A stretch of 34,472 nt of DNA from Bacillota bacterium (GTDB lineage Bacteria > Bacillota > Clostridia > Peptostreptococcales > Anaerovoracaceae): the NCBI GenBank assembly GCA_029239605.1, contig JARBUO010000045.1, forward strand, positions 1 to 34,472, written 5' to 3'. Under the pieces are notes generated by a model that searched no databases, was not told the DNA's origin, and was given only the letters and a program-made list of their open reading frames with translations. Every line of letters begins with the position of its first letter. Within the stretch, counting starts at the first letter, position 1. Positions 3,812-30,199 of this stretch are shown one piece after another. The translations under genes were made by a program, and so were the position numbers.

Positions 3812-4966
3812 ATGAAAAATTCTATGTTCAAAAAATTGAGCCTATGTCTGTCTGTATTTTTGATTGCAAGCACCATGAGCGCCTGCGGGTCCGGAGGCGC
3901 AAGCACAGGTGATTCCAAAGAATCCGATTCCAACAAGGACGGCACGGCTGTTTACTCAATCGGATACAATAACTGGGGTCAGGGCGTATTTCCATTGGAT
4001 ATCATCGAAAAAGAAACAAAAAATGCAACAGAGATATTCGGAAACAATCTGGTGGTGGCAAATGACGAATTTAAAGCCGACAAGGTAATCTCTGATGTTC
4101 AGACACTGATCTCATCCGGGGTAGACGGAATTCAGTTCTTTGGTATTTCTGAAACCATGTTTAACTCGGTTTCCCAAATTTGCCAAGATGCAAAAGTACC
4201 GTTCGTTTTATTTGATAAAATTCCTTCTAACGAGGTTCTCGCAAAGCTGAAGGAGAATCCTTACTTTGTAGGAGCAATATCTGCAGAGGACAAACTGGCC
4301 GGAAAAAGCATAGCGGAAATGGCACTGAAGGATGGATGTGAAACCGCAATTATTGTGGCAGCGGCAAAAGGGGACTCCTCTCATGATCTGAGAATTGAAG
4401 GATTTGTTGAAGCGTTTACAGCCGGAGGTGGCTATGTCCTTGGCGAAGCCCACTGTGCAGACCCAACGGAAGCCGTTCAAAAATCTAACGACCTTCTGAC
4501 AGCCTATCCCGATGCAGACTGCATTTATGGTACAGGCGGCGACTTTGTGGACGGCGCTTTAAATGCGCTGGCAAGCAGAAAAGACACAAACATGGACCCC
4601 AAAATCTACGGCACTGATATTACACCTGATATCGCACAAAAAATGGTAGACCAGCAGATTGATGGTGTTGTAGGCGGACAGTGGGTTGACGGTTCCCTTG
4701 CGAATATGCTGCTACTCAACTATCTTGACGGACATCCAATCCTTGGCGAAGATGGAAAAGCTCCGGTATTTACCAACCTTCCCATGTGTACCCTTGCTCC
4801 GGATCAGGCGGGCGCCTTCATCAAGCTTCTGGAAAACAATGAAAGCCCCATTTCCGACGAAGAGTATCAGAGCTTAAGCTATCGATTCAATCCTGAAGTA
4901 AGCTATCAGACATTCTTTGACTTTATTACTAATTATAATGAAACCTTTAACGCAAAGTTAAAATAA
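3812..4966 (+). CDS. Ribose-type ABC transporter substrate-binding lipoprotein (importer 1)
   Basis: The 384-residue product starts with a lipoprotein signal: MKNSMFKK, a hydrophobic stretch, then STMSAC with Cys25 as lipid anchor, followed by a Gly/Ser/Asp-rich linker. The remainder fits the periplasmic-binding fold of the ribose/galactose family (LISSGVDGIQFFG, VPFVLFDKI, DLRIEGFVEAF, DADCIYGTGGDFVDGALNAL). In this family the protein captures a sugar or related compound outside the membrane. GGAGGAG at 3798-3804 fits the ATG at 3812; an in-frame ATG at 3773 would add 13 residues before the signal and is unlikely. It is the first gene of a four-gene importer and is paralogous to the protein at 23452; both end in a YQTF-DFI-NYN motif. 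The ligand is unknown. Confidence 0.9.
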   Translation: MKNSMFKKLSLCLSVFLIASTMSACGSGGASTGDSKESDSNKDGTAVYSIGYNNWGQGVFPLDIIEKETKNATEIFGNNLVVANDEFKADKVISDVQTLISSGVDGIQFFGISETMFNSVSQICQDAKVPFVLFDKIPSNEVLAKLKENPYFVGAISAEDKLAGKSIAEMALKDGCETAIIVAAAKGDSSHDLRIEGFVEAFTAGGGYVLGEAHCADPTEAVQKSNDLLTAYPDADCIYGTGGDFVDGALNALASRKDTNMDPKIYGTDITPDIAQKMVDQQIDGVVGGQWVDGSLANMLLLNYLDGHPILGEDGKAPVFTNLPMCTLAPDQAGAFIKLLENNESPISDEEYQSLSYRFNPEVSYQTFFDFITNYNETFNAKLK

Positions 4967-5015
4967 ATACATAAACATCGCCGCAGAATTGCGGAATGTG
5001 AAACGTTATCGAAAA

Positions 5016-5067
5016 GCTCCTCTCCTAGCATCAGTACTGATTCGCTATAGCGATGCGGGAGAGGGGC
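5016..5067 (+). terminator. Hairpin between binding protein and permease (importer 1)
   Basis: GCTCCTCTCCTAGCATC (5016-5032) pairs imperfectly with GATGCGGGAGAGGGGC (about 5053-5068), and the bases after it are CTTTCTG. It lies in the 159-base gap after the binding-protein gene. Hairpins here commonly lower read-through or protect the upstream message, so the binding protein is made in excess of the membrane parts. Importer 2 has an analogous hairpin at 24599. Confidence 0.65.
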
Positions 5068-5125
5068 CTTTCTGAAAGCAGCGTACATCCGATATAAAAG
5101 AATTTGTTTGAGGAGAATATTTGAT

Positions 5126-6094
5126 ATGAATCAAGAGGCTTCATCCGCTGCAGCAACAAAAAGGATCAAAGCGGTTATTGTGATTATCCTCGTTGTTCTG
5201 GCCTTTGGAATACTAAATCGTTACGTTGACGGCAAGTTTATCAGTGTTTCGAATTTCAATGTACTGATAACCGGATCTGCCATACCTACCTTTGTCGCCT
5301 GGGGCCTCTGCTTTATTTTTGCAGCAGGCATTACTGACTTCTCCATTGGCGCTGTTCTTATTCTTTCCGCCACAGTGGGCGGAGCCCTGGGAAATAAGAT
5401 GGGATATCCCGGATTGATCCTTGGAGGAATCCTTGTAGGAATGGTTTTACTTCTTATTAATTTTCAGGTGTATAACATTACGAAAATACCATCCTGGATT
5501 GCAGGTCTGGGGATGACAATGATATATGAGGCAGTCGCTGCTTACTATGCGAAGCTCAGGCTGGCGCAGGGCCTTCAGGTCGTGCAGCTGGATCCTCAGC
5601 TGCGTGCTCTCGGACATGTCCCAGCAGTTTATTTTCTGCTGGCTGCAGGACTGGCCGTAGCATACTTGCTTTACAACCGGACAACCGCAGGACTGAATGT
5701 CAGAGCTGTGGGCAGCAATGGGACCATTGCAAAGATGATGGGAATCCATCCGGTAAAAGCACTGATCATCGGAGGCTTGATTGCCGGATTTTTTTTCGGC
5801 ATTGCCGGGGTGATCAAAGAGAGCTACGCAGGCCGTGTGATTGCCATGACGGGCTTATCCAGCATCAGTACTATCTTCCTGCCTTTAGCAGCAGTTTTAC
5901 TGTCCCAGGTGCTTCAAAAGTATATCAATATTATTATTGCAATCCCAATTGCGACCTTATTTATCTCATCCATCTTTAACCTGTTGACCCTTCTGGGGGT
6001 GCCTTCCGGTACATGGCAGGAGACCATACTGGGCGTGATCGTTATTGTTTTCGGAATGATCGCACAGAGAAAAGAGAAAGGGGTAATCAAATAA
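5126..6094 (+). CDS. Ribose-type ABC transporter permease, first subunit (importer 1)
   Basis: The 322-residue product belongs to the RbsC-like permease family. It has 8-10 hydrophobic segments, the FAAGITDFSIGAVLILSATVGG region typical of the family, and a conserved GLNVRAVGSNGTIAKMMGI cytoplasmic loop that contacts the ATPase. AGGAG at 5111-5115 fits the ATG at 5126; an in-frame TTG at 5108 is the only alternative. The stop TAA overlaps the ATPase start by one base (TAATG). With the second permease at 7599 it should form a heterodimeric channel, as in importers with two different permeases. It is paralogous to 24648-25625. Confidence 0.92.
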   Translation: MNQEASSAAATKRIKAVIVIILVVLAFGILNRYVDGKFISVSNFNVLITGSAIPTFVAWGLCFIFAAGITDFSIGAVLILSATVGGALGNKMGYPGLILGGILVGMVLLLINFQVYNITKIPSWIAGLGMTMIYEAVAAYYAKLRLAQGLQVVQLDPQLRALGHVPAVYFLLAAGLAVAYLLYNRTTAGLNVRAVGSNGTIAKMMGIHPVKALIIGGLIAGFFFGIAGVIKESYAGRVIAMTGLSSISTIFLPLAAVLLSQVLQKYINIIIAIPIATLFISSIFNLLTLLGVPSGTWQETILGVIVIVFGMIAQRKEKGVIK

Positions 6095-7602
6095 TGGTGC
6101 AAAATGAATCCATACTGCAAATCGAAAATCTGAACAAAAGCTTCGGTCCGACCCATGCCAATAAAAATATCTGCTTCACACTCAAAAGGGGAGAGGTCAG
6201 AGGTTTGGCGGGAGAAAACGGATCTGGGAAATCCACATTGCTTTCGCAAATTGCCGGGATCCTATGCAAAGACTCGGGCCAAATGCAAAAGGACGGAGCG
6301 GCATACGATCCAAAATCTCCTTTGGAGGCCAACGAAAAGAAAATCGCCATTGTTGTTCAGGAGCTGGGGCTGGTTAATACTCTGCCTGCCGGCATTAATA
6401 TCTTTCTCGGGAGGACCGACCAGTTTTCTCGCTTTGGCATCGTCAACATGAAGAAGGTCTATCAGGCAGCTAATGAGCAGCTTGAAAAGTGGGGCCTTCC
6501 CGCAATTCCGTATCATAGGCTTGCGGGAGAAATGAATGTTGAGACCCGAAAAATGATCGAACTTGCCAGAGCGCTGTCCACAGATCCTGATATCCTGATC
6601 TTGGATGAAGTGACCCAGGCGCTGTCCCATGACAATCGCCTGCGCTTATATGAGATTATTAAAACATTCAAAGAACAGGGTAAGTCCATTATTTTGATTA
6701 CCCACGATCTTGAAGAAATGATTGAAATAACCGATACCATTTCTATTCTTCGGGACGGCGAACTGATTGGAACAGAAACCAGCTGCGAAATCAATTCAGA
6801 TATCCTGAAAACCAAGATGGTCGGCAGAAAACTGGACGGAGAGTACTACCGTGCAGATGCGGAAGAACGTTATGAAGATGAGGTTATTCTCGAAGTGAAA
6901 AATCTTGTATCGGAGGATGGGCTCGCAGACATTTCCTTTGAAGTACATAAAGGGGAGATCCTGGGTTTTTGCGGCCTGAGCGATTCGGGAATCCATGCAG
7001 TGGGCAAGGCGGTCTACGGTCTGAGCAAATTGCAGACAGGAACTGTCTGTCTGAAACAGAAAAACATACGGATCTGCAATCAGACACAAGCACTACAAAA
7101 TGGGATGGCTTACGTTCCAAAGGACAGGGATCATGAAGCGCTTATGATGGCCGCATCCATCAGGGAAAACTTTAGTATGCCGTCACTGGATGCACTGAGA
7201 GGTCCCTTGGGGTATCTGAGCACCAGGAAACTCAATCGCATGGCTGAAGATGCAAAGAATCTGTTCAATGTCAAGTGCACCGGTATCGACCAGCCCATGA
7301 ACGGACTGAGCGGCGGCAACAAACAAAAGGTGAATCTGGGAAGATGGCTTCTGAAAGACCCCGATGTTCTCGTGGTAGATTGTCCTACAAGAGGAGTCGA
7401 TGTAGGAGTAAAGGCATATTTGTATCAGTGTCTGAAGAATGCCAAGGAAAAGGGCGTTGCTATCGTTCTGATTACCGATGAACTGTCGGAGGCAATTGGG
7501 ATGTCAGACAATATTGCAGTAATGAAAAATGGGAAAATCGTTAAAACCATAAAGAGAAGTTCTCATTTCAGTGAAGAAGCCATAATTGAGGTGATGATAT
7601 GA
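6094..7602 (+). CDS. Ribose-type ABC transporter double ATPase (importer 1)
   Basis: The 502 residues hold two nucleotide-binding domains. Domain 1 has Walker A GENGSGKST (40-48), Q-loop Gln in VVQEL (about 89), Walker B ILILDE with Asp171/Glu172 and switch His204 (THDLEE), but its signature is degenerate (AGEMNVETRKM instead of LSxGQ). Domain 2 has an intact signature LSGGNKQ (405-411) but no Walker A lysine pattern (GLSDSGIHAVG), and Walker B reads VVDCPTRGVDVG, with Cys430 where the catalytic Glu is expected. One complete and one dead ATP site are therefore predicted. The start at 6094 overlaps the permease stop; a longer frame from 6013 lies inside the permease. It powers uptake at the cytoplasmic face. 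Confidence 0.93.
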   Translation: MVQNESILQIENLNKSFGPTHANKNICFTLKRGEVRGLAGENGSGKSTLLSQIAGILCKDSGQMQKDGAAYDPKSPLEANEKKIAIVVQELGLVNTLPAGINIFLGRTDQFSRFGIVNMKKVYQAANEQLEKWGLPAIPYHRLAGEMNVETRKMIELARALSTDPDILILDEVTQALSHDNRLRLYEIIKTFKEQGKSIILITHDLEEMIEITDTISILRDGELIGTETSCEINSDILKTKMVGRKLDGEYYRADAEERYEDEVILEVKNLVSEDGLADISFEVHKGEILGFCGLSDSGIHAVGKAVYGLSKLQTGTVCLKQKNIRICNQTQALQNGMAYVPKDRDHEALMMAASIRENFSMPSLDALRGPLGYLSTRKLNRMAEDAKNLFNVKCTGIDQPMNGLSGGNKQKVNLGRWLLKDPDVLVVDCPTRGVDVGVKAYLYQCLKNAKEKGVAIVLITDELSEAIGMSDNIAVMKNGKIVKTIKRSSHFSEEAIIEVMI

Positions 7603-8558
7603 TAAATATGAAATTAAAGGTGAGCAATCTGATTCCTTTTATTGCTTTTTTTGGTCTGTTTCTTGTCTTTGCCATTGCAACAGACGGAACTGTCTGCAGC
7701 AGCTATAATATGAAGGTTATTGTTGGCCAGGTAATCCCTATTGTGCTCGGTGGTTTGGGTGTCATGTTTGTGGTTTCACAGGGGAGCGTGGATCTCTCCA
7801 TTGGCGGTACTGCTGCAGTCTCTGCCACGGTGGGAGCAATGATCGCCGCCCAATACGGCTTTGCTTTCCTGTTTCCCGTCGCTGTTATCATCGGAATTTT
7901 GATTGGTGTGATCAACGGGATGATTATTACCAGATTCAAAGTGTCCTCATTTATGACAACCCTTGCAATGCTCATTTCCCTCAGAGGCTTTCTCAATTAT
8001 CTGCTTTCGAAGGATGTGGTTTTTGCTCCCGATGGGTCCGCTTTTCTGAATGGATTCTATATTCAGCTTATAGCGCTGGTCATTGCAATCATAATTGTAG
8101 GATACCTGTTTGAGTATACAAAGACAGGACGCTGCTGCAAGGCCATCGGAGAGAATGAAACCACAAGCAGATATATCGGAATCAATGTCAGTAAAACCAG
8201 AGTAATCTCCTTTATTCTCTCTGGCGTTATGGCATCCCTCGTTGGTGTTTTCCAGCTGTGCAAGCTGGGGGGATCAAGCTCTACTCTGGGGCAGTTTTTT
8301 GAAATGAGGGTTATGATGGCAATCTTTCTTGGAGGCGTTTTGGTTACGGGTGGAATGTCAGCAAAAATCTATAAGCTGATTGTGGGAGCTTTCACCATCG
8401 TCGTGATTGAAAACGGGCTTTTGATCAGCAATGTGGATGGCTCCATTTCCGAAGCCGTACAGGGAATCCTGCTGATGCTGGTCCTGTTTGTAACCCTTCG
8501 GTTCAGCGGAGGCCCCATAAAGCGCACGAAAAAGGCTGCTGCTGCTGTACAGAAATAA
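7599..8558 (+). CDS. Ribose-type ABC transporter permease, second subunit (importer 1)
   Basis: The 319-residue RbsC-like membrane protein has the family region VVSQGSVDLSIGGTAAVSATVGA (about residues 58-80), GMIITRFKVSSFMTTLAML and the loop GRCCKAIGENETTSRYIGI. It overlaps the ATPase by four bases (ATGA), so translation is coupled; GAGGTG at 7588-7593 serves this start, and an internal ATG at 7608 is less well spaced. It differs clearly from the first permease (5126), supporting a heterodimer. It is the last gene of importer 1; a strong terminator follows. The C-terminus ends in a basic, Ala-rich tail (KRTKKAAAAVQK). Its counterpart in importer 2 is 27121-28083. Confidence 0.92.
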   Translation: MINMKLKVSNLIPFIAFFGLFLVFAIATDGTVCSSYNMKVIVGQVIPIVLGGLGVMFVVSQGSVDLSIGGTAAVSATVGAMIAAQYGFAFLFPVAVIIGILIGVINGMIITRFKVSSFMTTLAMLISLRGFLNYLLSKDVVFAPDGSAFLNGFYIQLIALVIAIIIVGYLFEYTKTGRCCKAIGENETTSRYIGINVSKTRVISFILSGVMASLVGVFQLCKLGGSSSTLGQFFEMRVMMAIFLGGVLVTGGMSAKIYKLIVGAFTIVVIENGLLISNVDGSISEAVQGILLMLVLFVTLRFSGGPIKRTKKAAAAVQK

Positions 8559-8639
8559 TAATCTCTCATAAAACAGAAATTATCTTTAAAAAAAGCAATC
8601 TTCTCAATCATTTATCGTTTCCTCTCAAATTAAATCATA

Positions 8640-8770: not shown

Positions 8771-10324
8771 TCAATCCATAAAGATCTTTTTCAGCTGAAT
8801 CAAGTCACCGTCAAGATGGCGGTACATTTCCAGATAGAGAGGGTACATCCTGTCATAAATACGGGCCCATTCATCTACTGGCTCAATGATCTCCTTAATC
8901 TGTATCAGCTTATTGATGCTCGCTGTGAGGTCGGGAAATACGCCTGTAGCACGGCCTGCAATAATGGCATCGCCAAAGGGAACGTCTCCGGACTTTTCAT
9001 CCATAAGGTAGACGGGCATATTCAGCATAGAAGCTTTGATCTGAGACCAGGTACGGCTTTTGGCTCCTCCGCCGGTAATCCGCAGGCAATGAGCTTCTGC
9101 GCCTGCTTCCTTGATGGTATTCATCACATGGCGCAATGCAAAAGCAGTTCCCTCCATAATGGAACGGATCATTGCGCTTCGCTGTGTATCAAGGGATAAT
9201 CCGATAAACATCCCCCGTGCATGCGAGTTCCAAAGCGGGGCCCGCTCTCCCATCATATAGGGGAAGAACATAAGGCCGTTGCTTCCGGCAGGGACTTCTG
9301 CTGCAAGCTCATTGATATATTCAAAGACGTTCTTACCCTGTAGAGCCGCAGCTTCCTTTTCCTCCTTGCCCAGCGTATTCAGATACCAGTTGAGGGAAGC
9401 ACCGGTGGCATTGATGGGAGCGTCAAACAAGTAAGGCATCCCAGCGATAGAACATGGTTTCGTTACAACGGGTATATCCGTCGCGCTTTGGCGAGTATGA
9501 CCTACAAAGACCAAAGAGGTCGTGCCGGAGGACTCACCCGCCTCACCGATCCTGCAAAGCCCTGTGGCATACATGGAAGCCATGGCATCGCTGGCACCGG
9601 CTACCACCGGAATGCCGCTGATCAGCCCTGTTTCTGCCGCAGCCTCATTGGTAACATGGCCGATGATTTCATCCGGTGCCTTTACTTGCGGCAGCAGAAG
9701 ATTCAGATCAGCACCGATGGCCTGTGAGATCTCATCGGACCATTTCAGCGTATTGATATTAAGGCATTGACATCTGGATGCCTGGTCGATATCCATGATC
9801 ATCTGCCCTGTCAGCTTATAATTAATATAGGAGCTTGCCTGAAGAACGCAGGCTGTCTTTGCGAAGAGCTCGGGCTCATTTCGTTTGAACCATAGTATTT
9901 TGTTGGGCAGGAAGGCCACATCAGGCTGAGCGCCTACAATGGATACAAATTCGGAACATCCGATTTCATCCAGAATGTACTGCAATTCTCTGTCGGAACG
10001 ATTATCCATCCAGATCATGGCGTTTCGGAGCGGATTTCCGTCTTTATCGACGGGCAGCATGGAGACAATGTGCGAGCTGACACAAATACCGCGGACCTTC
10101 TTCACGATATCCGGGCCAACTTGCCTGGTAATTGTTCTGATGATTTGAGCTGTATTCTCCCACCAGTGCACCGGATTCTGTTCGGCCATACCCGGACCTG
10201 GAAAAACCAATTCATTTCCTTTTGCAGAGGAGGCGACGACGGTACCATTCTCATCCATAATGATTGCTTTCACATTTGTCGTACCCAGATCGATTCCAAG
10301 TAAATAATTTTCAGCGGTTTTCAT
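8771..10324 (-). CDS. FGGY-family carbohydrate kinase (xylulokinase-like)
   Basis: The 517-residue product has the ASKHA kinase fold of FGGY enzymes: N-terminal phosphate motif YLLGIDLGTTNVKAIIMD (residues 7-24), sugar-site region AMIWMDNRSDRE (102-113), catalytic-base Asp246 in VVAGASDAMASM, and C-terminal ATP-binding ITGGGAKSRTWSQIKA. These enzymes phosphorylate a ketose or polyol with ATP in the cytoplasm. It most resembles xylulokinases in layout, but specificity in this family cannot be assigned from motifs. TCCTCC at 10334-10339 is the ribosome site on this strand. It diverges from the dehydrogenase at 10573 across a region with two operator-like repeats, and so probably shares a regulon with importer 1. 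An LsrK-like AI-2 kinase is less likely, as no LsrF/LsrG-like genes are nearby. Confidence 0.9.
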   Translation of the reverse strand: MKTAENYLLGIDLGTTNVKAIIMDENGTVVASSAKGNELVFPGPGMAEQNPVHWWENTAQIIRTITRQVGPDIVKKVRGICVSSHIVSMLPVDKDGNPLRNAMIWMDNRSDRELQYILDEIGCSEFVSIVGAQPDVAFLPNKILWFKRNEPELFAKTACVLQASSYINYKLTGQMIMDIDQASRCQCLNINTLKWSDEISQAIGADLNLLLPQVKAPDEIIGHVTNEAAAETGLISGIPVVAGASDAMASMYATGLCRIGEAGESSGTTSLVFVGHTRQSATDIPVVTKPCSIAGMPYLFDAPINATGASLNWYLNTLGKEEKEAAALQGKNVFEYINELAAEVPAGSNGLMFFPYMMGERAPLWNSHARGMFIGLSLDTQRSAMIRSIMEGTAFALRHVMNTIKEAGAEAHCLRITGGGAKSRTWSQIKASMLNMPVYLMDEKSGDVPFGDAIIAGRATGVFPDLTASINKLIQIKEIIEPVDEWARIYDRMYPLYLEMYRHLDGDLIQLKKIFMD

Positions 10325-10455: not shown

Positions 10456-10474
10456 CATGGGAAGGTGCAGGTAC

Positions 10475-10533: not shown

Positions 10534-10572
10534 GAATTTATAACAAAGAAGTAAAAAAAGGAGATGCGGAGT

Positions 10573-11529
10573 ATGAAAATGAAAGCTGCCATGATGTATG
10601 GCCCAAATGATATACGGGTGGAGATGGTAGAGAGACCCAGCTGCCCAATAGATGGTCTGGTTTTAAAAATTATGGCGGTAGGCCTTTGCGGATCGGATAT
10701 CAGAAATCTGACATATCAGATCGGAGATCGACTCTTCCTATTCCCCGGAACCTATTGTATGGAATGCGACGATTGTATCAGCGGGCACAGTGAAAATTGC
10801 ACCAACGTTGAGAAGGATCTGGCAGGGACAGGCGGCTTTGCTCAGTATGTAGCGGTATCCGGCCGCAAAATTCAGCTGGGTGGTATCTATCACATTCCAG
10901 AGGACGTCACCTTTGAGGCAGCAAGCCTGGGAGAGCCTCTGACCTCGGTGTATGCCTGCTTGGAGAATATCCGTGTCGGCTATGGGGATACCCTTGTGAT
11001 TATAGGTGCCGGTCCCATCGGCTGCTTTATGGCACAGCTGGCCAAGCTGAGGGGTGCCCAGACCGTAATTATGGTCGATATCAATGAAAAACGTCTTGAG
11101 ATGTCACGAGAATTTGGTGTGGATCATCTGGTAAACAGTGCAGAGAAGGACCCCATTGAAGCGGTCAATCAGTTGACCGGCAGGTTAGGTGCAGACAAAG
11201 TAATTTCAGCAAATCCTTCCAATGCGGCTCAGGCCCAGAGTATCTTTATGGTTAAGAAGGGCGGGATTGTTGTTTTCTTTGGTGGTGTTCCCAAAGGTTC
11301 TCTGACTGAAATTGACACCAACTACATCCACTATAGTAATATCTGGATCAAGGGGCATTTCGGAGCTTCGTATATCCAATCAAAAAGAGCGTATGAATTA
11401 GCCATCGATAAGAATTTTCCAAGCCATAAGTTTATCACCCATAAGCTTCCTCTTGATAAAATCAATGATGGCATCGAACTGACAAGAAGCGGTGAAGCCA
11501 TCAAGGTAGTTCTGCTTCCTCAGGATTAA
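10573..11529 (+). CDS. Zinc-type (MDR) alcohol/polyol dehydrogenase lacking the GHE metal-ligand segment
   Basis: The 318-residue product belongs to the medium-chain dehydrogenase family. Cys39 (GLCGSD) is the first catalytic zinc ligand, Cys62/65/68/76 (CMECDDC...C) are the structural zinc site, GAGPIG (145-150) binds NAD(P), and Glu121 (LGEPL) is present. The usual segment between CGSD and GDR that carries the GHE zinc ligands is missing: CGSDIRNLTY runs straight into QIGDRLF. About 25-30 residues are lost in frame, agreeing with 318 rather than the usual 340-350. The enzyme may be inactive, bind metal differently, or reflect a deletion in this strain or assembly. AAGGAG at 10558-10563 favours the start at 10573 over 10564. 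An intact relative would oxidise a polyol or sugar alcohol before kinase action. Confidence 0.85.
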   Translation: MKMKAAMMYGPNDIRVEMVERPSCPIDGLVLKIMAVGLCGSDIRNLTYQIGDRLFLFPGTYCMECDDCISGHSENCTNVEKDLAGTGGFAQYVAVSGRKIQLGGIYHIPEDVTFEAASLGEPLTSVYACLENIRVGYGDTLVIIGAGPIGCFMAQLAKLRGAQTVIMVDINEKRLEMSREFGVDHLVNSAEKDPIEAVNQLTGRLGADKVISANPSNAAQAQSIFMVKKGGIVVFFGGVPKGSLTEIDTNYIHYSNIWIKGHFGASYIQSKRAYELAIDKNFPSHKFITHKLPLDKINDGIELTRSGEAIKVVLLPQD

Positions 11530-11727: not shown

Positions 11728-11820
11728 AAATTGCGCATTAAGAAACAAAATCTCATAGCTTTTGTACCCATGAATTTATTGTATCAGTGTGAAGCAAACC
11801 GGAGCAGCGGTTTGCACGTA

Positions 11821-11829
11821 TGGTATAAT
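11821..11829 (+). promoter_or_regulatory. Extended -10 promoter, copy 2
   Basis: TGGTATAAT repeats the copy 1 arrangement 102 bases downstream. It is followed 15 bases later by an ACAAAA-N9-TTTTGT repeat, as copy 1 is. Confidence 0.5.
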
Positions 11830-11968
11830 AAATGCTAATATGAAACAAAATTATGTGGATTTTGTCGGAGGCATTAATTGTATTGGTGTGAGACAAATTG
11901 GAGCAGGGTTTTGTACCGATGAAAGAATGAATGCAAATTGGCTTTTGCTATTAAGTTGGAGTATCATT

Positions 11969-13888: not shown

Positions 13889-13962
13889 AAAGTGTAGCTC
13901 GGTTTGCAGGTGATAAGGTTTAACGATTAGGGTGTATGGTGCCTTTGCGAAGGAGGCTGAAT

Positions 13963-15993: not shown

Positions 15994-16031
15994 TATCAAA
16001 TTTTTCCTCAAGTGAATGGAAAAACTTGATA
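15994..16031. promoter_or_regulatory. Operator-like inverted repeat upstream of the ene-reductase operon
   Basis: TATCAAATTTTTCC (15994-16007) mirrors GGAAAAACTTGATA (16018-16031) with one mismatch. The core is TTTCC-N10-GGAAA. From the right arm on, 30 or so bases are almost the same as at 3423-3451 (GAAGTT then three variable bases then AAACAGAT). A possible -10, TAATAT, follows at about 16054. The ene-reductase gene starts 55 bases after the repeat. Confidence 0.72.
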
Positions 16032-20019: not shown

Positions 20020-20067
20020 CACAGGAAAAGCAGTTAAGCCCAAAAAAGCAATATGGAGGCCTATGAA

Positions 20068-21120: not shown

Positions 21121-21124
21121 AAAA

Positions 21125-23320: not shown

Positions 23321-23451
23321 TGTTATCAAGCAAATTATGATACCTTATAGAAGAACAAAGCAACGGCAAACCAGTTGACACATAAGGGCAAACCCTATTT
23401 ATGGCAAGTCTGGTGGCAAAAGAAAAAAATAATGGAAATGGGAGAAAAATC

Positions 23452-24582
23452 ATGAAAAAGTTAGTGAAAAATGTGCTGCCCGGAGTACTGGCATGCTCCT
23501 TGATTCTATTTAGTTTTACAGGCTGCGGTGGTGGTGAAAATGCTGCATCCGGCGGTGGAGAGACCCCTGATGGTGCAGCAACAGGCAAATATGCCGTCAG
23601 CGGCAACATCTGGGGCCAAGGCGTCAATGCACTGGATGTCATTGCAGGAGAAGCACAGTATGTAAACGAATCGTTAGGAAACTCTTTCAAGATATACAAC
23701 GATAACTTTACGGCTGATACCCAGGCCAGCAATATCCAGAACATGGCATCCTCAGGGACACAGGGTATGATGATCTTCGGATCCGTTCCTACGCTGTATC
23801 AGACGCTTTCCTCAACCTGCGAAAAGGCTAAGATTCCCTTCGTTATATTTGATCAGATTCCTACGGATGAGAAAATTCTTGATAAGCTGGAGCAAAACGC
23901 ATTCTATGTAGGCAGTGTGGGAACCGACAACTATTCCGCGGGTGCCAACGCTGCAAGAAAAATGCAGGAAAACGGAATTGAATCAGCATTCATCCTTGGC
24001 GGTGCAGTAGGAGATCCTGTTCATGACGCCAGAGTAAAGGGCTTCACCGAGACCTTTGAAAAAGGAGGCGGAAAGGTACTGGCCGCAGGTCGCTGTGATT
24101 CTCCTTCTGATGCCGCAACAAAAGGTGACGATCTTGTATCCGCAAACCCAGATTGCCAGGGAATCTATGCACTGACCGGTGATTATGCCATCGGCTCAAT
24201 CACAGCACTTTCCAATCACAATAAAGAAATGGCCATTTATTGCTCCGATACCACTGAAGAATGTATCAGCCATATTCAGGACGGCACAATTGCTTACGGA
24301 GATGGCGGCTCAAAAATCGTAACGACCCTTGCCGCATTACTCTTGAATAATTATCTGAATGGGAACGCAATTAAGGGAAATGATGGAGTAGCGCCTTACT
24401 TTAATACCATCGTGCCATTTGAAATCAATGCAGAGAATGCTTCGCTGTATTCCGAGTATTTTCTGAAAGGTCATCCGATGAATGCCGATGCATTAAAGAC
24501 CTTAGTAGGAGAAGGAGTTACTTATCAGACCTTCATTGACTTCATCATAAATTACAACTTGGAAGAAATCGCTTCTAAATAA
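23452..24582 (+). CDS. Ribose-type ABC transporter substrate-binding lipoprotein (importer 2)
   Basis: The 376-residue product is a paralogue of 3812-4966. It has a lipoprotein signal (MKKLVKNV, hydrophobic core, FSFTGC with Cys25), a Gly-rich linker, then the ribose-type fold (NIWGQGVNALDVIAGEAQYVNESLG, TQGMMIFGSVPTLYQTL, IPFVIFDQIPTDE, DARVKGFTETFEKGGG). It has the same WGQGV near the start and YQTF-DFI-NYN at the end as the first copy, suggesting related ligands. GGGAG at 23440 fits the ATG at 23452; the open frame extends up to 23401 but lacks a signal there. It begins a five-gene unit that ends with an ene-reductase. The ligand is unknown. Confidence 0.9.
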   Translation: MKKLVKNVLPGVLACSLILFSFTGCGGGENAASGGGETPDGAATGKYAVSGNIWGQGVNALDVIAGEAQYVNESLGNSFKIYNDNFTADTQASNIQNMASSGTQGMMIFGSVPTLYQTLSSTCEKAKIPFVIFDQIPTDEKILDKLEQNAFYVGSVGTDNYSAGANAARKMQENGIESAFILGGAVGDPVHDARVKGFTETFEKGGGKVLAAGRCDSPSDAATKGDDLVSANPDCQGIYALTGDYAIGSITALSNHNKEMAIYCSDTTEECISHIQDGTIAYGDGGSKIVTTLAALLLNNYLNGNAIKGNDGVAPYFNTIVPFEINAENASLYSEYFLKGHPMNADALKTLVGEGVTYQTFIDFIINYNLEEIASK

Positions 24583-24598
24583 ATCACGAAGGAAAGTT

Positions 24599-24622
24599 GA
24601 GCCGCCGGTTTTTTGGCGGCTC
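24599..24622 (+). terminator. Hairpin between binding protein and permease (importer 2)
   Basis: GAGCCGCC pairs with GGCGGCTC around GGTTTTTT. It occupies the same place as the hairpin at 5016-5067 in importer 1. Six T's lie in the loop rather than after the stem, so partial attenuation or 3'-end protection of the binding-protein message is more likely than complete termination. Confidence 0.65.
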
Positions 24623-24647
24623 TCATAAAGAATGCGTGGGGTGCAAC

Positions 24648-25625
24648 GTGACAATAAAAAATAATATCAACAGAGGAGAAAGCTGGAAACAATGGTTTTT
24701 TCTCTTTCTGATTCTTTTACTCATAGCGGCGGTTTGCTATCTCTTCGATTTTTGTTTCGATGGTAAATTTTTAACCAAAAGCAATCTCACAGTACTAATC
24801 TCACATGCAATTATACCTGCTTTCGTGGCTTGGGGACTTTGTTTTATCTTTGCCTGTGAATTTACTGATATGTCTATCGGAGCTGTGATCGTAATTGCCG
24901 CCAACGTTTCTGGCATGCTTGGAAGTGCGTTCGGGTATCCCGGAATCATCCTTGGCGGGATCGGTACTGGAATGCTGCTAATTGCGTTCAATTTCTTCAT
25001 CTTTGTAAAAACCAACATTCCATCGTGGATTGCGGGAATCGGACTGGCAATGATCTATGAAGCTTTGGCAGTACTGTATTCCAACAAGGTTACCCAAAGC
25101 GGGGGAACCATTGCACAGCTGGACAATTCCTTGCGGCTGCTGGCAAAGCCCCCTTATATTTATCTGGTATTTTTCCTTGGATTTATTGCTGCTTATCTAA
25201 TTTATAACAGAACCCAGGTGGGATTGAATATCCGGGCCTTGGGAAGCGGGCTGAAGGTCTCCGCTGACCTTGGAATTGATATAAAGAAAACACTGCTTTA
25301 TGTAGGCCTTATCTGTGGCTTCTTTGTGGGCTGCTCCGCCTTCCTCAACGAGAGTTATAATGCCAGAATGACAGCAAAAACAGGACTGACAAGTCTGGCG
25401 ATGATCTTTCAGCCAATGGCAGCATTGATGCTTGCTCAGGTGCTGCAGTCAAGGATTAATATCATTGTAGGAATCCCCATCTGTTCCCTGCTGGTTTACA
25501 GCATCTTCAACATGCTTACAATAGCGGGGGTTCCATCAGGTACGTGGCAGGAAGCCATTCTCGGCTTTATCGTAATCCTGTTTGGAGTGATAGCGCAAAG
25601 GAACACAAAGGGGGTAGTGAAATGA
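24648..25625 (+). CDS. Ribose-type ABC transporter permease, first subunit (importer 2)
   Basis: The 325-residue RbsC-like protein is the paralogue of 5126-6094. Shared stretches include AWGLCFIFA, FTDMSIGAVI, FGYPGIILGGI, IPSWIAGIGLAMIYEA and VPSGTWQEAILG. It has 8-10 hydrophobic segments. The GTG at 24648 is preferred because GTGGGG lies just upstream and the length then equals that of the importer 1 copy. A longer frame from a TTG at 24597 would run through the hairpin at 24599-24622. The end overlaps the ATPase start by four bases (ATGA). Confidence 0.88.
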   Translation: MTIKNNINRGESWKQWFFLFLILLLIAAVCYLFDFCFDGKFLTKSNLTVLISHAIIPAFVAWGLCFIFACEFTDMSIGAVIVIAANVSGMLGSAFGYPGIILGGIGTGMLLIAFNFFIFVKTNIPSWIAGIGLAMIYEALAVLYSNKVTQSGGTIAQLDNSLRLLAKPPYIYLVFFLGFIAAYLIYNRTQVGLNIRALGSGLKVSADLGIDIKKTLLYVGLICGFFVGCSAFLNESYNARMTAKTGLTSLAMIFQPMAALMLAQVLQSRINIIVGIPICSLLVYSIFNMLTIAGVPSGTWQEAILGFIVILFGVIAQRNTKGVVK

Positions 25626-27124
25626 CAGACATCATCCTTGACGTAAAGGGACTTTATAAGCATTTCGGGTCAACCTGTGCAAATAAAAACGTTGATTTCT
25701 CTTTGAAGAAGGGAGAGGTTAGAGGCCTTGCAGGCGAAAATGGTTCGGGTAAATCAACGCTCCTGTCTCAGATTTCAGGCATCTGCCGCAAAGATGCAGG
25801 AGAGATGATTCTGAACGGCGAACCCTACGATCCCCATAGCCCTTTGCAGGCAGCAAACCATAAGATTGGTATTGTCGTTCAGGAACTGGGTGTACTCTCA
25901 ACATTGCCAGCAGGAGTCAATGTATTTGCCGGCAGGCTTTCCCAATTTACGCGCTTTGGAATTATCAATATGAGTGCGCTGTATCAGGAAGCGGAAAAGC
26001 AATTTAAAAAATGGGGGCTGATGCCAGTTCCTCTTAAGAAAACCTGCGGCAATATGCAAATTGAAACAAGAAAAATGATTGAGCTTGCAAGAGCACTCTC
26101 TATAGACCCTGATCTGCTGATTCTGGATGAGGTTACCCAGTCTTTGTCTCAAAATAATCGGGACATGCTGTATCAACTGATTGAATATCTAAAGGCTGCG
26201 GGAAAAACCATCGTGATTATCACCCATGACTTGGAAGAGATGATTCGCCTGTGCGACAACATAACCGTTTTAAGAGATGGTGAAGTGGTGGGAACGAAAG
26301 CGTGTGACGGTCTTGAACCCGATGAACTGAAGCGAATGATGGTAGGGCGGGAAGTAAGCTGCGCATATTATCGAGAGGATTGGGTTCCTGACTACGAGGA
26401 TGAGATTGTCCTAAAGGCAGAAGAACTATCCGTTTCCGGTGAAATCGAAGCGGTGTCCTTCAACGTGCATCGGGGAGAGATTCTGGGTTTTTGCGGTCTT
26501 AGCGATTCCGGGATACATACTGTTGGAAAAGCCGTCTATGGTCTTGCGCCATCCATGAAGGGCAGAGTAGTCTTATCAAAAAAATCATTGGAAATAAAAA
26601 ATGCCGGGACGGCACTTTGTAACGGTATGGCCTATGTTCCCAAGGATCGGGACGGGGAAGCCTTGATGATGCAGGACAGTATCGTGAATAATTTTGTATT
26701 TCCTTCCACTACATCACTGAAGGGCAGACTGAGCTTTCTCAATCCCCGAAAGCTAAGGACTGTGGCAGAAAAAGGCATCGCAGACTTCCAAATTAAGTGC
26801 AGTGGTGTCAATCAGCGAATGGACGGCCTCTCCGGAGGAAATAAGCAGAAAGTAAACCTGGGCCGTTGGCTGATCAAAGATCTGGATGTGCTGATTTTGG
26901 ATTGTCCCACAAGAGGTGTTGATGTAGGTGTGAAAGCGTATATCTATCAGTTGATGCGTCAGGCAAAGGCACAAGGTCTTGCAATCCTATTGATCTCTGA
27001 TGAACTGCCGGAAATCATAGGGATGTCGGATCGTGTAATTATCATGAAAGATGGCAGAATCAACGGCGAATTTGAACGGGGAGATGACTTTATACAGGAG
27101 AAATTGATTGAGGTAATGGTATGA
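25622..27124 (+). CDS. Ribose-type ABC transporter double ATPase (importer 2)
   Basis: The 500-residue protein is the paralogue of 6094-7602 with the same unusual sites. Domain 1: GENGSGKST (38-46), LILDEVTQSLS, ITHDLEE, and a degenerate signature CGNMQIETRKM. Domain 2: LSGGNKQ intact, Walker A replaced by GLSDSGIHTVG, and Walker B LILDCPTRGVDVG with Cys428 at the usual catalytic Glu position. That both copies share these changes shows they arose before the duplication and were kept. The ATG at 25622 overlaps the permease stop; the frame from 25544 is inside that gene. It energises importer 2. Confidence 0.93.
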   Translation: MTDIILDVKGLYKHFGSTCANKNVDFSLKKGEVRGLAGENGSGKSTLLSQISGICRKDAGEMILNGEPYDPHSPLQAANHKIGIVVQELGVLSTLPAGVNVFAGRLSQFTRFGIINMSALYQEAEKQFKKWGLMPVPLKKTCGNMQIETRKMIELARALSIDPDLLILDEVTQSLSQNNRDMLYQLIEYLKAAGKTIVIITHDLEEMIRLCDNITVLRDGEVVGTKACDGLEPDELKRMMVGREVSCAYYREDWVPDYEDEIVLKAEELSVSGEIEAVSFNVHRGEILGFCGLSDSGIHTVGKAVYGLAPSMKGRVVLSKKSLEIKNAGTALCNGMAYVPKDRDGEALMMQDSIVNNFVFPSTTSLKGRLSFLNPRKLRTVAEKGIADFQIKCSGVNQRMDGLSGGNKQKVNLGRWLIKDLDVLILDCPTRGVDVGVKAYIYQLMRQAKAQGLAILLISDELPEIIGMSDRVIIMKDGRINGEFERGDDFIQEKLIEVMV

Positions 27125-28083
27125 AAAAAGAACGATTTGAATTGAACAAACTTACCCCTTTTGTGTCCTTGATCGTAATGCTTCTCGTATTTACCGTTCT
27201 GACAAAGGGGAGCATGATTTCACCGTATAATATTTCGATGCTGATCGATCAGTCGGTGGTCCTGATCATCGCCTGCTGCGGCACCATTTTCGTATCTGCT
27301 CAGGGACGTGTTGATTTGTCTGTGGGTGTGAACTGTGCATTCTCTGCGGTGATCGGTGATCTTGCATATCGGGCAACGGGTTCTTCTCTGATCATGATCG
27401 TGACAGCCTTGCTGGTGGGTGTCGGAATCGGGCTGGTAAATGGAATGCTGATTAGCAGATTCAAGGTACCGTCCTTTATGGCCACCTTGGCCATCCTGAT
27501 CGGACTTCGGGGAATTGTCAACTATATCCAAAGCATTGCCAGTGTGAATTATGCCAGTGATGTAATTATGATGCTTTCAGATAATCAGATCAAACTGCCG
27601 CTTTTGATCCTGATTGTTGTGGTATTCTGGTACCTTTTCGAGTATACAAGTCTGGGAAGATACTGCAAAGCCATTGGTGAAAATGAGGTGGTGGCATACT
27701 CTGTGGGAATGCCGGTGGGAAGAAGCAAGATTGTTGCATATGCGCTCTCGGGATTGACTGCGGCTATTTCATGTATTTTCCTCATTGCCCGGCTGGGTGG
27801 AACCAGTACAACCATGGGAACCTTCTTCGAAATGAAAGTGATGACCGCAATTTATGTGGGCGGCGTTCTGGTACGGGGCGGCTCCACTGCAAAGATGTAT
27901 AAAGCTATTCTGGGTGCTTTTATCGTCATGATTATCGAAAACGGATTGAAAATTATGGGATATGCGTCCAGTGAGGTTTCTGAATTTGTTCAGGGGCTCT
28001 TGCTGATGGTCATTCTGTTTCTGACGGTATTCTTTGAACTTCGCAGACAGAAAGTCAAAAAAACAGCAGGACAGGAAGCATAG
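27121..28083 (+). CDS. Ribose-type ABC transporter permease, second subunit (importer 2)
   Basis: The 320-residue RbsC-like protein is the paralogue of 7599-8558 (SAQGRVDLSVGVNCAFSAVIG, GMLISRFKVPSFMATLAIL, GRYCKAIGENEVVAYSVGM, GGTSTTMGTFFEMKVMTAIYVGGVLVRGG). It overlaps the ATPase by four bases (ATGA). The C-terminal tail is basic. Importer 2 is continuous with the second ene-reductase: there is no terminator in the 154 bases before it. Confidence 0.92.
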   Translation: MKKERFELNKLTPFVSLIVMLLVFTVLTKGSMISPYNISMLIDQSVVLIIACCGTIFVSAQGRVDLSVGVNCAFSAVIGDLAYRATGSSLIMIVTALLVGVGIGLVNGMLISRFKVPSFMATLAILIGLRGIVNYIQSIASVNYASDVIMMLSDNQIKLPLLILIVVVFWYLFEYTSLGRYCKAIGENEVVAYSVGMPVGRSKIVAYALSGLTAAISCIFLIARLGGTSTTMGTFFEMKVMTAIYVGGVLVRGGSTAKMYKAILGAFIVMIIENGLKIMGYASSEVSEFVQGLLLMVILFLTVFFELRRQKVKKTAGQEA

Positions 28084-28110
28084 CAGATCCATTTATCAAG
28101 CAGTTGAGGC

Positions 28111-28170
28111 GAGGCAGCCCATTGTTAAAGAAGTCGGGATGAGGCAGCTTATCGTCAAAGAAGCCTGCTA
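28111..28170 (+). repeat. Two tandem 30-bp imperfect repeats
   Basis: GAGGCAGCCCATTGTTAAAG at 28111 recurs as GAGGCAGCTTATCGTCAAAG at 28141, both followed by AAG. The spacing is exactly 30 bases. They lie in the leader between the permease and the ene-reductase. The reading frame is open here, so a repetitive N-terminal extension of the ene-reductase cannot be excluded, but no conserved residues or ribosome site support it. Confidence 0.55.
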
Positions 28171-28237
28171 TCACGGGCAGGACAACCGGCACAAGTCAGC
28201 GCTGCGAGCATTAATTATGAAAGGAATCAAATCATCC

Positions 28238-30199
28238 ATGAAATATAACAACCATTATCCAAATCTTTTTAAACCAATTAAAATCGGAAATCTAACACTG
28301 AAGAACCGGATTTTTTCAGCACCTACTTCCTTGAACTGGGGAGCGGTGGACGGCAATCTCACGCCGGAAACCATCGCTTATTATGAGCTGAAAGCAAAAG
28401 GCGGTGCAGCGGTGGTAACCATGGGAGAAAGCATTGTACATACTGTCACCGGAAAATCCCATGACCGGCAGATTGAGCTTGATAATCCTACCTCTCTTGT
28501 GGGTTTGTCCCAGCTGGCAAAGGCAATCAAACGCCACGGAGCAGTGCCCAGCGCTGAATTGTCTCATGGAGGAAAATGGGGCGGACTTGTCAGCATGGCA
28601 GGCAGTATGAAAGAGGGAAGAATTGCGTACGGTGCCAGTGATGAAATGCTGGCGGAGGGGCCCGTGAAGGAAATGCCGGAGGCATTGCTGCTGGAAGTGA
28701 TTGAATCCTTCGGAAAGGGAGCCGCCGTTCTGAAACGGGCAGGGTTTGAAATGTGCATGGTGCATGCAGGCCACGGCTGGTTTTTCGGCCAGTTTCTTTC
28801 CAAAAGGACGAACCATCGTACCGATCGGTTTGGCGGCAGTTTTGAGAATCGAGCAAGAGCCCTTACCATGGCACTGGAATCCATTCGGCGTCATGTTGGC
28901 CCCGGATTTCCCATAGAGGTTCGTATGAGCGGAGATGAATTTGTAGAAGGAGGAATTGACCTGAATGAGGGAATACTACTTGCAAAGCTCATCGAAAATC
29001 AATGCGATCTGATTAATGTTTCCGCAGGAATGCATGAGGACCTCGAACTGTATCTCAGAACCCATCCCACACAGTTCATGGAAAAGGGCGCAAATGTCTA
29101 TCTTGCGGAAGCCATTCGCAGAGAAGTCAGCATACCGATCTCCACGGTAGGGGGCATCGTCGATCCGGCGATGATGGAAGACATTATTGCATCAGGGAAA
29201 GCAGATTTGGTTGAACTGGGAAGACCACTTCTTGCAGACCCCTATCTGCCGCAGAAACTGAGAGAAGGCAGAGAGCGGGAGATTACAAAGTGCCTCAGAT
29301 GTATGGGGTGCTTCGGTGAGTCCCTGAAAACAGAAACTACATCCTGTGTGATCAATCCGGTCATAGGGAACGAGTTTAACGAAAGCATTGCCAAATGCCA
29401 GCCTACAGAACGGAAGAAGGTTCTGGTTGCCGGAGGCGGTCCCGGGGGAATGAAAGCGGCTCTGACAGCGGCTGAGCGGGGACACGAGGTGGTGCTGTGT
29501 GAAAAAACTGATGCGCTGGGAGGAGCTCTTGCTTTTGCGCAATACGTACCATTCAAGTATGGTCTCTACGAATACAAGGACGTGCTGGAATACTTGCTGA
29601 AGAAGAACGGGGTTGAGATCAGACTGAATACAGAAGTTACGTCTGAACTTGTAGCACAGGAAAAGCCGGATGCCCTGCTGCTGGCTGTGGGAGCCACTCC
29701 CATTACTCCGAATCTTCCTGGCATTGACAGCGATCATGTGAGATTCGCCCAGGACATCTACGGAAAAGAAGATCAGCTGGGTGATACCGTTGCTGTCCTG
29801 GGGGGCGGTCTGGTGGGCTGTGAAACAGCAGCACATCTTGCTAGACTCGGAAAAAATGTGACGCTTATCGAGCTGCGTGAGGATCTTGCTATGGATGCAG
29901 ACCTATTTTATCAGACCGCAGTGAAAGGCGATCTTCGCAGAAATAATGCAAAGATCTTTGTTAGCTCCGCAGGGCGCAAGGTTACGAAAGACGGAATCCT
30001 GATCAGCACAGCGGAAGGCTTGGAAGTGCTGGTGCAGGCAGACACGGTGATCAATGCTGCAGGATATCGTGCCGATGATACCGCGTTCCAGAATCTGAAT
30101 GGCGCAGCGCCGGTGGTGCAGCGGATCGGAGACTGCAGACGCCCGGGGAAGGTCACCAATGCAGTGACAGACGGATATTACATGACCCTTGATCTATAA
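28238..30199 (+). CDS. Old-yellow-enzyme/2,4-dienoyl-CoA-reductase-like 4Fe-4S flavoprotein 2 (ene-reductase)
   Basis: The 653 residues from this start follow the plan of 16086-18068: FMN barrel from YPNLFKPIKIGNLTLKNRIF, 4Fe-4S ligands Cys352/355/358/370 (CLRCMGC...C), FAD motif VAGGGPGGMKAA, NAD(P) motif AVLGGGLVGCETA and a terminal RIGDCRRPGKVTNAV. The active-site loop is HAGHGW (176-181), again Trp181 instead of Tyr. It should reduce an activated double bond with NAD(P)H in the cytoplasm. An in-frame ATG at 28217 is also possible; AAAGGA at 28219-28224 favours 28238, if at a long spacing. The open frame reaches back to 28034 inside the permease. It is the fifth gene of the importer 2 operon. 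Confidence 0.88.
   Translation: MKYNNHYPNLFKPIKIGNLTLKNRIFSAPTSLNWGAVDGNLTPETIAYYELKAKGGAAVVTMGESIVHTVTGKSHDRQIELDNPTSLVGLSQLAKAIKRHGAVPSAELSHGGKWGGLVSMAGSMKEGRIAYGASDEMLAEGPVKEMPEALLLEVIESFGKGAAVLKRAGFEMCMVHAGHGWFFGQFLSKRTNHRTDRFGGSFENRARALTMALESIRRHVGPGFPIEVRMSGDEFVEGGIDLNEGILLAKLIENQCDLINVSAGMHEDLELYLRTHPTQFMEKGANVYLAEAIRREVSIPISTVGGIVDPAMMEDIIASGKADLVELGRPLLADPYLPQKLREGREREITKCLRCMGCFGESLKTETTSCVINPVIGNEFNESIAKCQPTERKKVLVAGGGPGGMKAALTAAERGHEVVLCEKTDALGGALAFAQYVPFKYGLYEYKDVLEYLLKKNGVEIRLNTEVTSELVAQEKPDALLLAVGATPITPNLPGIDSDHVRFAQDIYGKEDQLGDTVAVLGGGLVGCETAAHLARLGKNVTLIELREDLAMDADLFYQTAVKGDLRRNNAKIFVSSAGRKVTKDGILISTAEGLEVLVQADTVINAAGYRADDTAFQNLNGAAPVVQRIGDCRRPGKVTNAVTDGYYMTLDL

Follow-up and report, generated by a model that had tools for sequence, protein, structure and literature searches.

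C-glycoside deglycosidases (CGDs) release an enone sugar, 1,5-anhydro-D-erythro-hex-1-en-3-ulose (PMC8563793, PMC10628242), which O-glycoside eliminases release as well (PMC10628242). According to the passages available from these reports, the enone sugar is hydrated to 3-keto-glucose, which is then reduced to glucose (PMC7676230, PMC10628242). The operons described there for CGDs, levoglucosan and O-glycoside eliminases contain, in the same passages, no OYE, FGGY kinase or aldolase. A different combination of genes was found in the window analyzed here, i.e., the whole 34,472-nucleotide contig C107 of a Bacillota genome (G000; 248 contigs totalling 3.95 Mb, with a completeness of about 90%). 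The window carries two CUT2-type importers, two OYE-like flavoproteins (OYE1 and OYE2) and, around OYE1, a group of genes for sugar enzymes. A sequence-only reading had paired importer and reductase, with the imported compound or a direct product of it being reduced. Comparison with other genomes and loci (G and L numbers) showed that the meaningful unit is a seven-gene sugar set, rather than an importer-reductase pair. No pathway of this kind was found in the literature searched, which comprised no preprints and few subscription papers.

The seven-gene set around OYE1

In the window, the set consists of OYE1, an FMN/4Fe-4S/FAD ene-reductase-like flavoprotein (16086..18068; PF00724, PF07992), and six partners: an FGGY sugar kinase (8771..10324; PF00370/PF02782), a Zn alcohol/polyol dehydrogenase (Zn-ADH; 10564..11529; PF00107/PF08240), a PRD-type regulator, a lactaldehyde-reductase-like Fe alcohol dehydrogenase (Fe-ADH 1; 18095..19240; PF25137/PF00465), a class II (FucA-like) aldolase (19318..19959; PF00596) and a D-2-hydroxyacid dehydrogenase (20053..21120; PF02826). 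All lie on the plus strand except the kinase, which lies on the minus strand. Two PRD-type regulators are encoded on the plus strand, regulator 1 (11789..13888; HTH_11, PRD) and regulator 2, which has an EIIA-like end (13936..15909; HTH_11, PRD, PTS_EIIA_2).

In a tree, OYE1 belonged to one clade of 11 rows with a support of 100/100, and OYE2 formed a separate lineage with rows from the window and G280 only. Orthologues of OYE1 were rare: four of the 393 genomes of the order scored above 1,100 bits (next score 806). The family of G764 served as second group; here, five of 200 genomes scored above 1,060 bits (next score 690), with G765 as a sixth. G764 and G765 were first reached via the importer scan. 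In the genome searches, the best few candidates per genome were scored (three for OYE and four for the solute-binding protein (SBP) in the 393 genomes, six for OYE in the 200 genomes), so that absences are not absolute. Several sampled genomes were incomplete, and the counts refer to genomes rather than to independent events.

The arrangement of the window was syntenic in G280, with identities of 85-100%. All six partners were present at nine of the ten well-covered OYE1 loci (window, G280, G169, G292, G764, G765, G877, G803 and G801), and the eleventh locus, a 4.7-kb contig of G767, showed three partners. Outside the window's genus, the PRD match was 26-50% identical and, judged by this similarity, may not be orthologous. 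Since the loci were found through OYE1, sets without an OYE would have been missed. Part of the neighboring genes was labelled, in many cases by BLAST to proteins of the window or of the loci.

The transporter accompanying the set varied. An importer of the window's CUT2 type was located near the set in the window, G280, G169 and G292, and a more distant family member in G834. In G764 and G877, family searches identified an MFS protein within the set, and proteins of similar length were read by eye at that place in G765, G169 and G292. MFS proteins lie near the set in G801, as does an SBP_bac_1-type importer in G877. Thus, the reductase is the constant and the importer the variable component. 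In the neighborhood check proposed with the sequence-only reading, a CUT2 importer was near five of the ten OYE1 loci (window, G280, G169, G292 and G834), and none was present in the flanks read in G764, G765, G877, G803 and G801, which counts against a strict unit of importer and reductase.

The shared operator and the extent of the pairing

Importer 1 is encoded on the plus strand by the genes for the CUT2 solute-binding protein SBP1 (3773..4966, with a possible start at 3812; PF13407), permease A1 (5108..6094; PF02653), a double ATPase with two ABC_tran stretches (about 6091..7602, open reading frame 6013-7602) and permease B1 (7599..8558; PF02653). The operator that importer 1 had been said to share with the OYE1 operon was confirmed as a 38-bp inverted repeat, recorded without strand, that precedes both importer 1 (3399-3436) and OYE1 (15994-16031). 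The two copies agree at 33 of 38 positions and differ at 5, and one arm is identical. With up to three mismatches, the pattern of the 19-base arm occurred four times in the window, always at these two places, as compared to 0.01 occurrences expected from shuffles. Two such sites were found in G280 at the homologous places before the same two genes, with no third site within the 75 kb read, and one site precedes SBP1 in L018. Apart from these, searches in stretches of G169, G292 and further loci did not turn up the operator, nor did a scan of the window reveal such a site at copy 2. In G169 and G292, the genes for the importer and OYE1 are arranged as one cluster. Because the operator is shared in both the window and G280, co-regulation of importer 1 with the OYE1 operon is very probable.

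Direct adjacency of importer and OYE1 in another genus (G169 and G292) bore out the neighborhood check for copy 1. The same four of the 393 genomes (the window's, G280, G169 and G292) contained both OYE1 orthologues and close SBP relatives (E < 1e-100); they represent two lineages since they belong to two genera. Four more genomes sampled from the genus of the window yielded neither. In G334 and G369, SBP relatives were present at a greater distance (E ~1e-50), with no OYE in the flank read.

The importers of the window's family formed one clade of 18 ATPase rows. At 8 of 17 loci of this family, an OYE was located within 10 kb (two each in the window and G280, and one each in G169, G292, L021 and G834); the other nine had none in the flank read, several of these flanks being shorter than 10 kb on one side. 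The importer loci L018 and L019 were too short to judge and were left out of the 17. Near OYE matches of other kinds, a CUT2 importer was found in 1 of 20 regions (G334:C136); these regions hold 22 of the 28 matches, some on short contigs. One further region, in G267, lacked a CUT2 importer, and five matches were not fetched.

These counts bear on the possibility that the pairings are coincidental and that the region simply gathers catabolic genes. The nine importer loci without an OYE in the flank read would fit a coincidence, as would the copy-2 pair, which was seen in the window and G280 only. For copy 1, a coincidence is countered by the shared operator, the direct adjacency in a second genus and the identical sets of genomes among the 393, and this explanation is considered very unlikely. 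The pairing read from the sequence was thus partly supported: linkage and co-regulation held for copy 1, but a strict unit did not, since the importer is variable and the pairing in copy 2 is, as seen, specific to one lineage.

The gene calls and coordinates of the sequence-only reading were correct. The order of binding protein, permease, double ATPase and permease occurs twice (PF13407, PF02653, two ABC_tran domains and PF02653 in each copy), and the two OYE/enoate-reductase-like flavoproteins are paralogous (PF00724 and PF07992 in each). Between the copies, identity was 37% for the SBPs, 55% for permeases A, 57% for the ATPases, 43% for permeases B and 46% for the OYEs. With identities of 37-57%, importers and OYEs are old paralogues and not chance matches. 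On account of these values and of the separate lineage of OYE2, a recent duplication of copy 1 as the origin of copy 2 was rejected.

Both importers belong to the CUT2 family by their Peripla_BP_4 SBP, BPD_transp_2 permeases and fused double ATPase, and a structural model of SBP1 (mean pLDDT 73) matched CUT2 sugar-binding proteins with Z scores of 26-29. In the ribose importer RbsABC, RbsC works as a homodimer. The window importers share component families and the SBP fold with RbsABC, but have two different permeases in place of the RbsC homodimer. ATPase 1 fell short of the RbsA equivalog model (398 bits, cut-off 745), as did SBP1 of the RbsB model (30 bits, cut-off 337; NCBIfam scan of copy 1).

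OYE1 and OYE2 belong to the OYE/2,4-dienoyl-CoA-reductase-like FMN-4Fe-4S-FAD family, with a PF00724 barrel, a cysteine cluster (C-x2-C-x2-C-x11-C in both) and PF07992. The H-G-Y position of classical OYEs, whose tyrosine is the proton donor, reads H-G-W in 38 of 40 related rows of the alignment. Their domain order is that of the BaiCD-like and bilirubin-reductase-like OYEs. The best NCBIfam models were BaiCD for OYE1 (433 bits, cut-off 825) and, for OYE2, the mycofactocin OYE_2 (430 bits, cut-off 793) and the long form of BilR (393 bits, cut-off 750). Since these scores are far below the cut-offs, OYE1 and OYE2 were not called BaiCD, BilR or mycofactocin OYE, and an assignment as bile-acid or bilirubin enzyme was rejected. 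An amine dehydrogenase of the TMADH/histamine-dehydrogenase type was also rejected, as aligned position 39 is a serine where TMADH has its flavin-linking cysteine. The predicted structure of OYE1 (mean pLDDT 67) was not used.

Linkage to C-glycoside deglycosidases and a candidate substrate

The CGD-beta family PF19906 was counted in 71 genomes and then in 80 more. In the family of G764, CGD-beta exceeded the cut-off in five of six set-bearing genomes, as compared to 6 of 110 set-lacking genomes (3/30 and 3/80). Across these related genomes, and uncorrected for ancestry, Fisher's test gave p = 1.7e-5 (1.5e-4 without G765; 1.3e-3 without G764 and G765). On the window's side, none of the 30 set-lacking genomes had a PF19906 match.

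The OYE1 set is also physically linked to CGD genes in G877 and G834. In G877, the aldolase gene of the set is followed on the same strand by genes for a Gfo/Idh/MocA oxidoreductase, a CGD-beta, a barrel protein resembling CGD-alpha that narrowly missed the Pfam cut-off, a fused CGD-beta/alpha and further CGDs, and another fused CGD gene ends about 1 kb before the Fe-ADH gene of the set. Importers of the window's family adjoin CGD-alpha and CGD-beta genes in G764, G765 and G834; in G834, the Fe-ADH gene of the set lies about 4.4 kb beyond the importer, across a PRD gene and a gene for a protein of 439 amino acids. The importers closer to importer 1 adjoin a Mo oxidoreductase gene in G764 (family search) and G765 (BLAST), and L022, a relative of importer 2, lies about 1.7 kb from a gene for a phloretin-hydrolase-type protein. 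Thus, the importer family recurs beside genes for the breakdown of plant phenolics. The CGD genes in G877, G834, G764 and G765 link the set or the importer family to the CGD (DgpABC/CGD) system, and the enone sugar that this system yields, as reported in the accessible parts of PMC8563793 and PMC10628242, is a candidate substrate of OYE1. Unlike that system, the window's genome has no detectable CGD-beta. The hint at unsaturated sugars in the sequence-only reading is, through these CGD links, its best-supported part, the substrate itself being unproven.

Tentatively, and with somewhat less than an even chance, copy 1 may be a sugar-salvage system in which OYE1 reduces an imported enone sugar of the CGD type or a close relative. 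Gene content, the conservation of the set, the common operator and the proximity of the set and of the importer family to CGD genes in other genomes are observed; what OYE1 acts on, that it carries out an ene reduction and the sequence of reactions are our inference, as follows. First, 1,5-anhydro-D-erythro-hex-1-en-3-ulose or a close relative would be released by CGDs of other bacteria and taken up by importer 1. CGD-beta is not detectable in the window's genome or in the other four on its side that carry the set, so that these bacteria would live on the sugar of others. Second, instead of hydration, OYE1 would reduce the activated C=C bond with NAD(P)H via FAD, the 4Fe-4S cluster and FMN. 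Third, the product would be handled as an ordinary sugar, i.e., through redox conversion by Zn-ADH, phosphorylation by the FGGY kinase and an aldol cleavage of the FucA type to dihydroxyacetone phosphate and a short aldehyde. Fe-ADH 1 would reduce the aldehyde, and the 2-hydroxyacid dehydrogenase a 2-oxoacid.

Several observations weigh against this salvage route. Its weakest point is the chemistry: no complete route could be drawn by which a 1,5-anhydro sugar, once reduced, would become a substrate of FucA, because its ring is not an acetal. In the passages available, the described fate of the enone sugar is hydration and reduction, with no ene-reductase (PMC7676230, PMC10628242). PF19906 had no match in the five set-bearing genomes of the window's side (G000, about 90% complete, and G280, G767, G169 and G292), so that the CGD link is missing from the window's own lineage, or in set-bearing G801. 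The CGD-beta comparison is, as stated, one across related genomes. The tenth well-covered OYE1 locus, G834, has four of the six partners, the FGGY kinase and Zn-ADH genes being absent from the 39.8 kb read, and its 439-amino-acid protein between importer and set looked by eye like an aspartate kinase. No SBP of the window's family was found at E <= 1e-30 in G877, G803 and G801, which make up half of the six genomes with the set in the second group. When the fold of SBP1 was compared, many CUT2 sugar binders matched with tied Z scores, from which no ligand could be read. Finally, Zn-ADH of the window lacks 29 residues (at about 10714), including the G-H-E segment, which are present in G280 and G292. 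The alignment showed the same gap in G169. Either a true deletion or an error of assembly may lie behind it, and the window strain may have an inactive enzyme.

The families of the partners also fit a simpler substrate. An FGGY kinase, a FucA-type aldolase and a lactaldehyde reductase make up the usual pattern of deoxy-sugar degradation, and PRD regulators usually respond to carbohydrate supply. The aldolase belongs to the FucA-type class II family (PF00596), and its best PDB matches were chains of L-fuculose-phosphate aldolase; it scored below the cut-offs of all 25 named NCBIfam models shown and had no match among viral contigs. Fe-ADH 1 scored 330 bits with ErcA and 326 bits with lactaldehyde reductase, both under the cut-offs. 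The set could accordingly degrade an ordinary deoxy sugar, pentitol or cyclitol, with OYE1 handling a side product or internal enone and the tie to CGDs reflecting a shared plant-glycoside lifestyle; G801, which has the set and no CGD-beta, would agree with this. Such a role leaves the presence of OYE1 at every set locus seen to be explained, with the reservation that these loci were found through OYE1, since we know of no OYE in ordinary deoxy-sugar, pentitol or cyclitol routes. The CGD array of G877, continuous with the aldolase gene of the set, also speaks against it, and this explanation is regarded as somewhat unlikely.

Alternatively, OYE1 (and OYE2) may act on the aromatic half of a phenolic glycoside or aglycone, with the kinase and aldolase genes using the sugar half. 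Models of such an aromatic reduction are Fcr, which acts on flavanones, and daidzein reductase, both members of the OYE superfamily. Reductive flavonoid enzymes of gut bacteria are described in the accessible part of PMC8398226. Other OYE clades adjoin aromatic genes, as in G334:C136 and G329:C149, with an AhtL-like Mo enzyme, a DPGC-like cyclase and DUF362, and genes for a phloretin-hydrolase-type protein (L022) or a Mo oxidoreductase (L211) are found close to importers of the window's family. The OYE1 clade, on the other side, is accompanied by sugar enzymes at all loci seen, and no ring-cleavage gene was among the labelled part of the OYE1 neighbors outside the window's genus. On balance, reduction of the aromatic half was judged unlikely.

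The salvage reading can be widened to a new reductive keto-sugar route, in which bacteria without CGDs import, by a CUT2 importer dedicated to it, the electrophilic 2-hydroxy-3-keto-glycal set free by others from C-glycosides of plant polyphenols, reduce its double bond by an Fe-S ene-reductase rather than hydrating it and ferment the product via kinase and aldolase, and in which copy 2 would be a parallel pair for another fragment of the same glycosides. Taken together, these claims are improbable to the same degree as a reduction of the aromatic half. If the salvage reading is right, a fate of the sugar half of C-glycosides outside the known hydration route would be shown, the seven-gene set conserved in two bacterial groups would have a function, and a trade in a reactive enone sugar between bacteria would be suggested. 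The idea is directly testable, since each enzyme can be studied separately and an enzymatic preparation of the candidate substrate is possible.

Beside CGD genes and the OYE1 set, fusions of an AraC-type DNA-binding part with a GH39-like part recur (L209:16859-19321, L213:9448-11958, L159:6272-8851 and L162:1716-4076). From their composition, these proteins look like glycoside-sensing regulators.

Copy 2 and the adjoining ring-cleavage cluster

Copy 2 is encoded on the plus strand and comprises SBP2 (23401..24582; PF13407), permease A2 (24597..25625; PF02653), a double ATPase with two ABC_tran stretches (about 25601..27124, open reading frame 25544-27124), permease B2 (27121..28083; PF02653) and OYE2 (about 28217..30199, open reading frame 28034-30199, start unsure; PF00724, PF07992). 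OYE2 follows importer 2 directly, as had been noted, and does so in G280 as well. Copy 2 would be the same kind of importer and reductase pair for another compound, beside a phloroglucinol-type cluster.

Besides the window, the pair of importer 2 and OYE2 was seen only in G280, a genome of the same genus. In G767, the genome of L018 and L019 and a near-identical relative, importer 2 lies on a contig of 3.9 kb whose end is reached before any OYE. No match of the OYE2 type was found in this fragmented metagenome-assembled genome (MAG), in which other OYEs scored 527 and 351 bits. A general rule of pairing between importer 2 and an OYE was rejected, as the OYE of L021 belongs to another clade, L020 and L022 had none in the flank read and G767 had none.

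Transporters of the importer-2 type were followed by two tandem SnoaL_4 proteins in two Lachnospiraceae MAGs (L214:7974-9279 and L021:13331-14636). L020 also adjoins two SnoaL_4 proteins, and those adjoining L021 are near-identical to them. Possibly, these proteins are dehydratases acting on the imported compound.

Downstream of OYE2, the window encodes a beta-keto acid cleavage enzyme (BKACE; 30471..31319, minus strand; PF05853), a DUF362 protein (31674..32936, plus strand; PF04015) and an MFS transporter (32952..34292, plus strand; lactate/oxalate-type MFS models below cut-off). All three are conserved in ring-cleavage clusters of other genomes. By homology, Fe-ADH 2 (21125..22279, plus strand) is also a member of this cluster and not of the OYE1 set, with relatives of 40-53% identity within the ring-cleavage cluster of G267, G202, G152, G278 and G120. 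In G280, the region continues beyond the window's end with genes for a thiolase, a LarE-like protein, a sigma-54 regulator, a PF04199 cyclase, a 3HCDH, CtfB and LarC/LarB-like proteins. Contig C58 of the window's genome (G000:C58) holds the first six of these genes (95-99%), with the thiolase, cyclase, 3HCDH and CtfB at 97-99%. No equivalog was found for the cyclase.

The phloroglucinol cluster, as presented in the accessible part of PMC10470551, is matched by BKACE in the window and by the DPGC-like cyclase and TfD-like 3HCDH on G280 and G000:C58; a thiolase, a CoA-transferase subunit, an MFS transporter and a regulator are likewise present beside copy 2 in G280. In contrast to that cluster, no SDR-type PGR was recognized among the G280 proteins scanned, and the cluster on the window's side has additional DUF362 and Lar-like genes. 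Moreover, the pocket residue of BKACE is an isoleucine, i.e., neither a glutamate nor the tryptophan of the characterized TAL in the part of PMC10470551 available. The cyclase was found in 28 of the 393 genomes of the order, including all four with the OYE1 set. In the second group, three of six set-bearing genomes had it, as compared to 1 of 30 set-lacking genomes.

OYE2 might itself be part of the ring-cleavage cluster, reducing a ring of the di- or trihydroxybenzene type before the DPGC-like cyclase acts, with importer 2 importing the phenol. The cluster of G280 and G000:C58 would accommodate this, as it matches the accessible description in PMC10470551 apart from the SDR reductase PGR. On one strand of G334:C136, moreover, two CUT2 importers, two OYEs, a cyclase, a 3HCDH, a thiolase, an AhtL-like Mo enzyme and a DUF362 protein are encoded, so that import and reduction beside ring cleavage are seen elsewhere; an OYE and a cyclase occur together in G329:C149 and G369:C24 as well. 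The importers of G334:C136 lie outside the importer clade of the window in the tree. Against a part for OYE2, 11 other cyclase regions (G267, G202, G278, G152, G371, G169, G292, G072, G362, G120 and G218) had no adjacent OYE or importer of the window's family, which shows that the ring-cleavage cluster can stand alone; the region in G169 has one distant double ATPase (26%). In addition, BKACE is convergent with OYE2, and the two are separated by a stem-loop followed by a T run (about 30316-30357; our own reading, not listed by the scan). The isoleucine of BKACE, where the characterized TAL of the passages available from PMC10470551 has a tryptophan, also tells against this role of OYE2, which is considered quite unlikely.

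G334:C136 1-20662 (L077, L078) was noted as a candidate polyphenol degradation operon. Its AhtL-like Mo enzyme was rejected as part of the window's system, since no match at E<1e-50 was obtained in G000 or G280.

LarB-, LarC- and LarE-like genes serve the synthesis of the nickel-pincer cofactor. In ring-cleavage clusters, such genes were observed beside DUF362 in L023:17-841 and L026:6497-9223, and also in L124, L125 and L127. No LarA was seen near them, in searches of which none was aimed at LarA. The DUF362 protein might be the user of the nickel-pincer cofactor.

A Crp/Fnr-type regulator gene (22472..23179, minus strand; PF00027/PF13545) lies between Fe-ADH 2 and SBP2. Between the first operator copy and SBP1, the window carries an insertion of about 250 bp (about 3515-3774) that is not present in G280. 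Its core, at 3560-3714, is a segment of 155 bp that folds very stably by prediction and is bounded by perfect terminal inverted repeats of 15 bp, and by these features looks like a small element of the MITE (miniature inverted-repeat transposable element) type.

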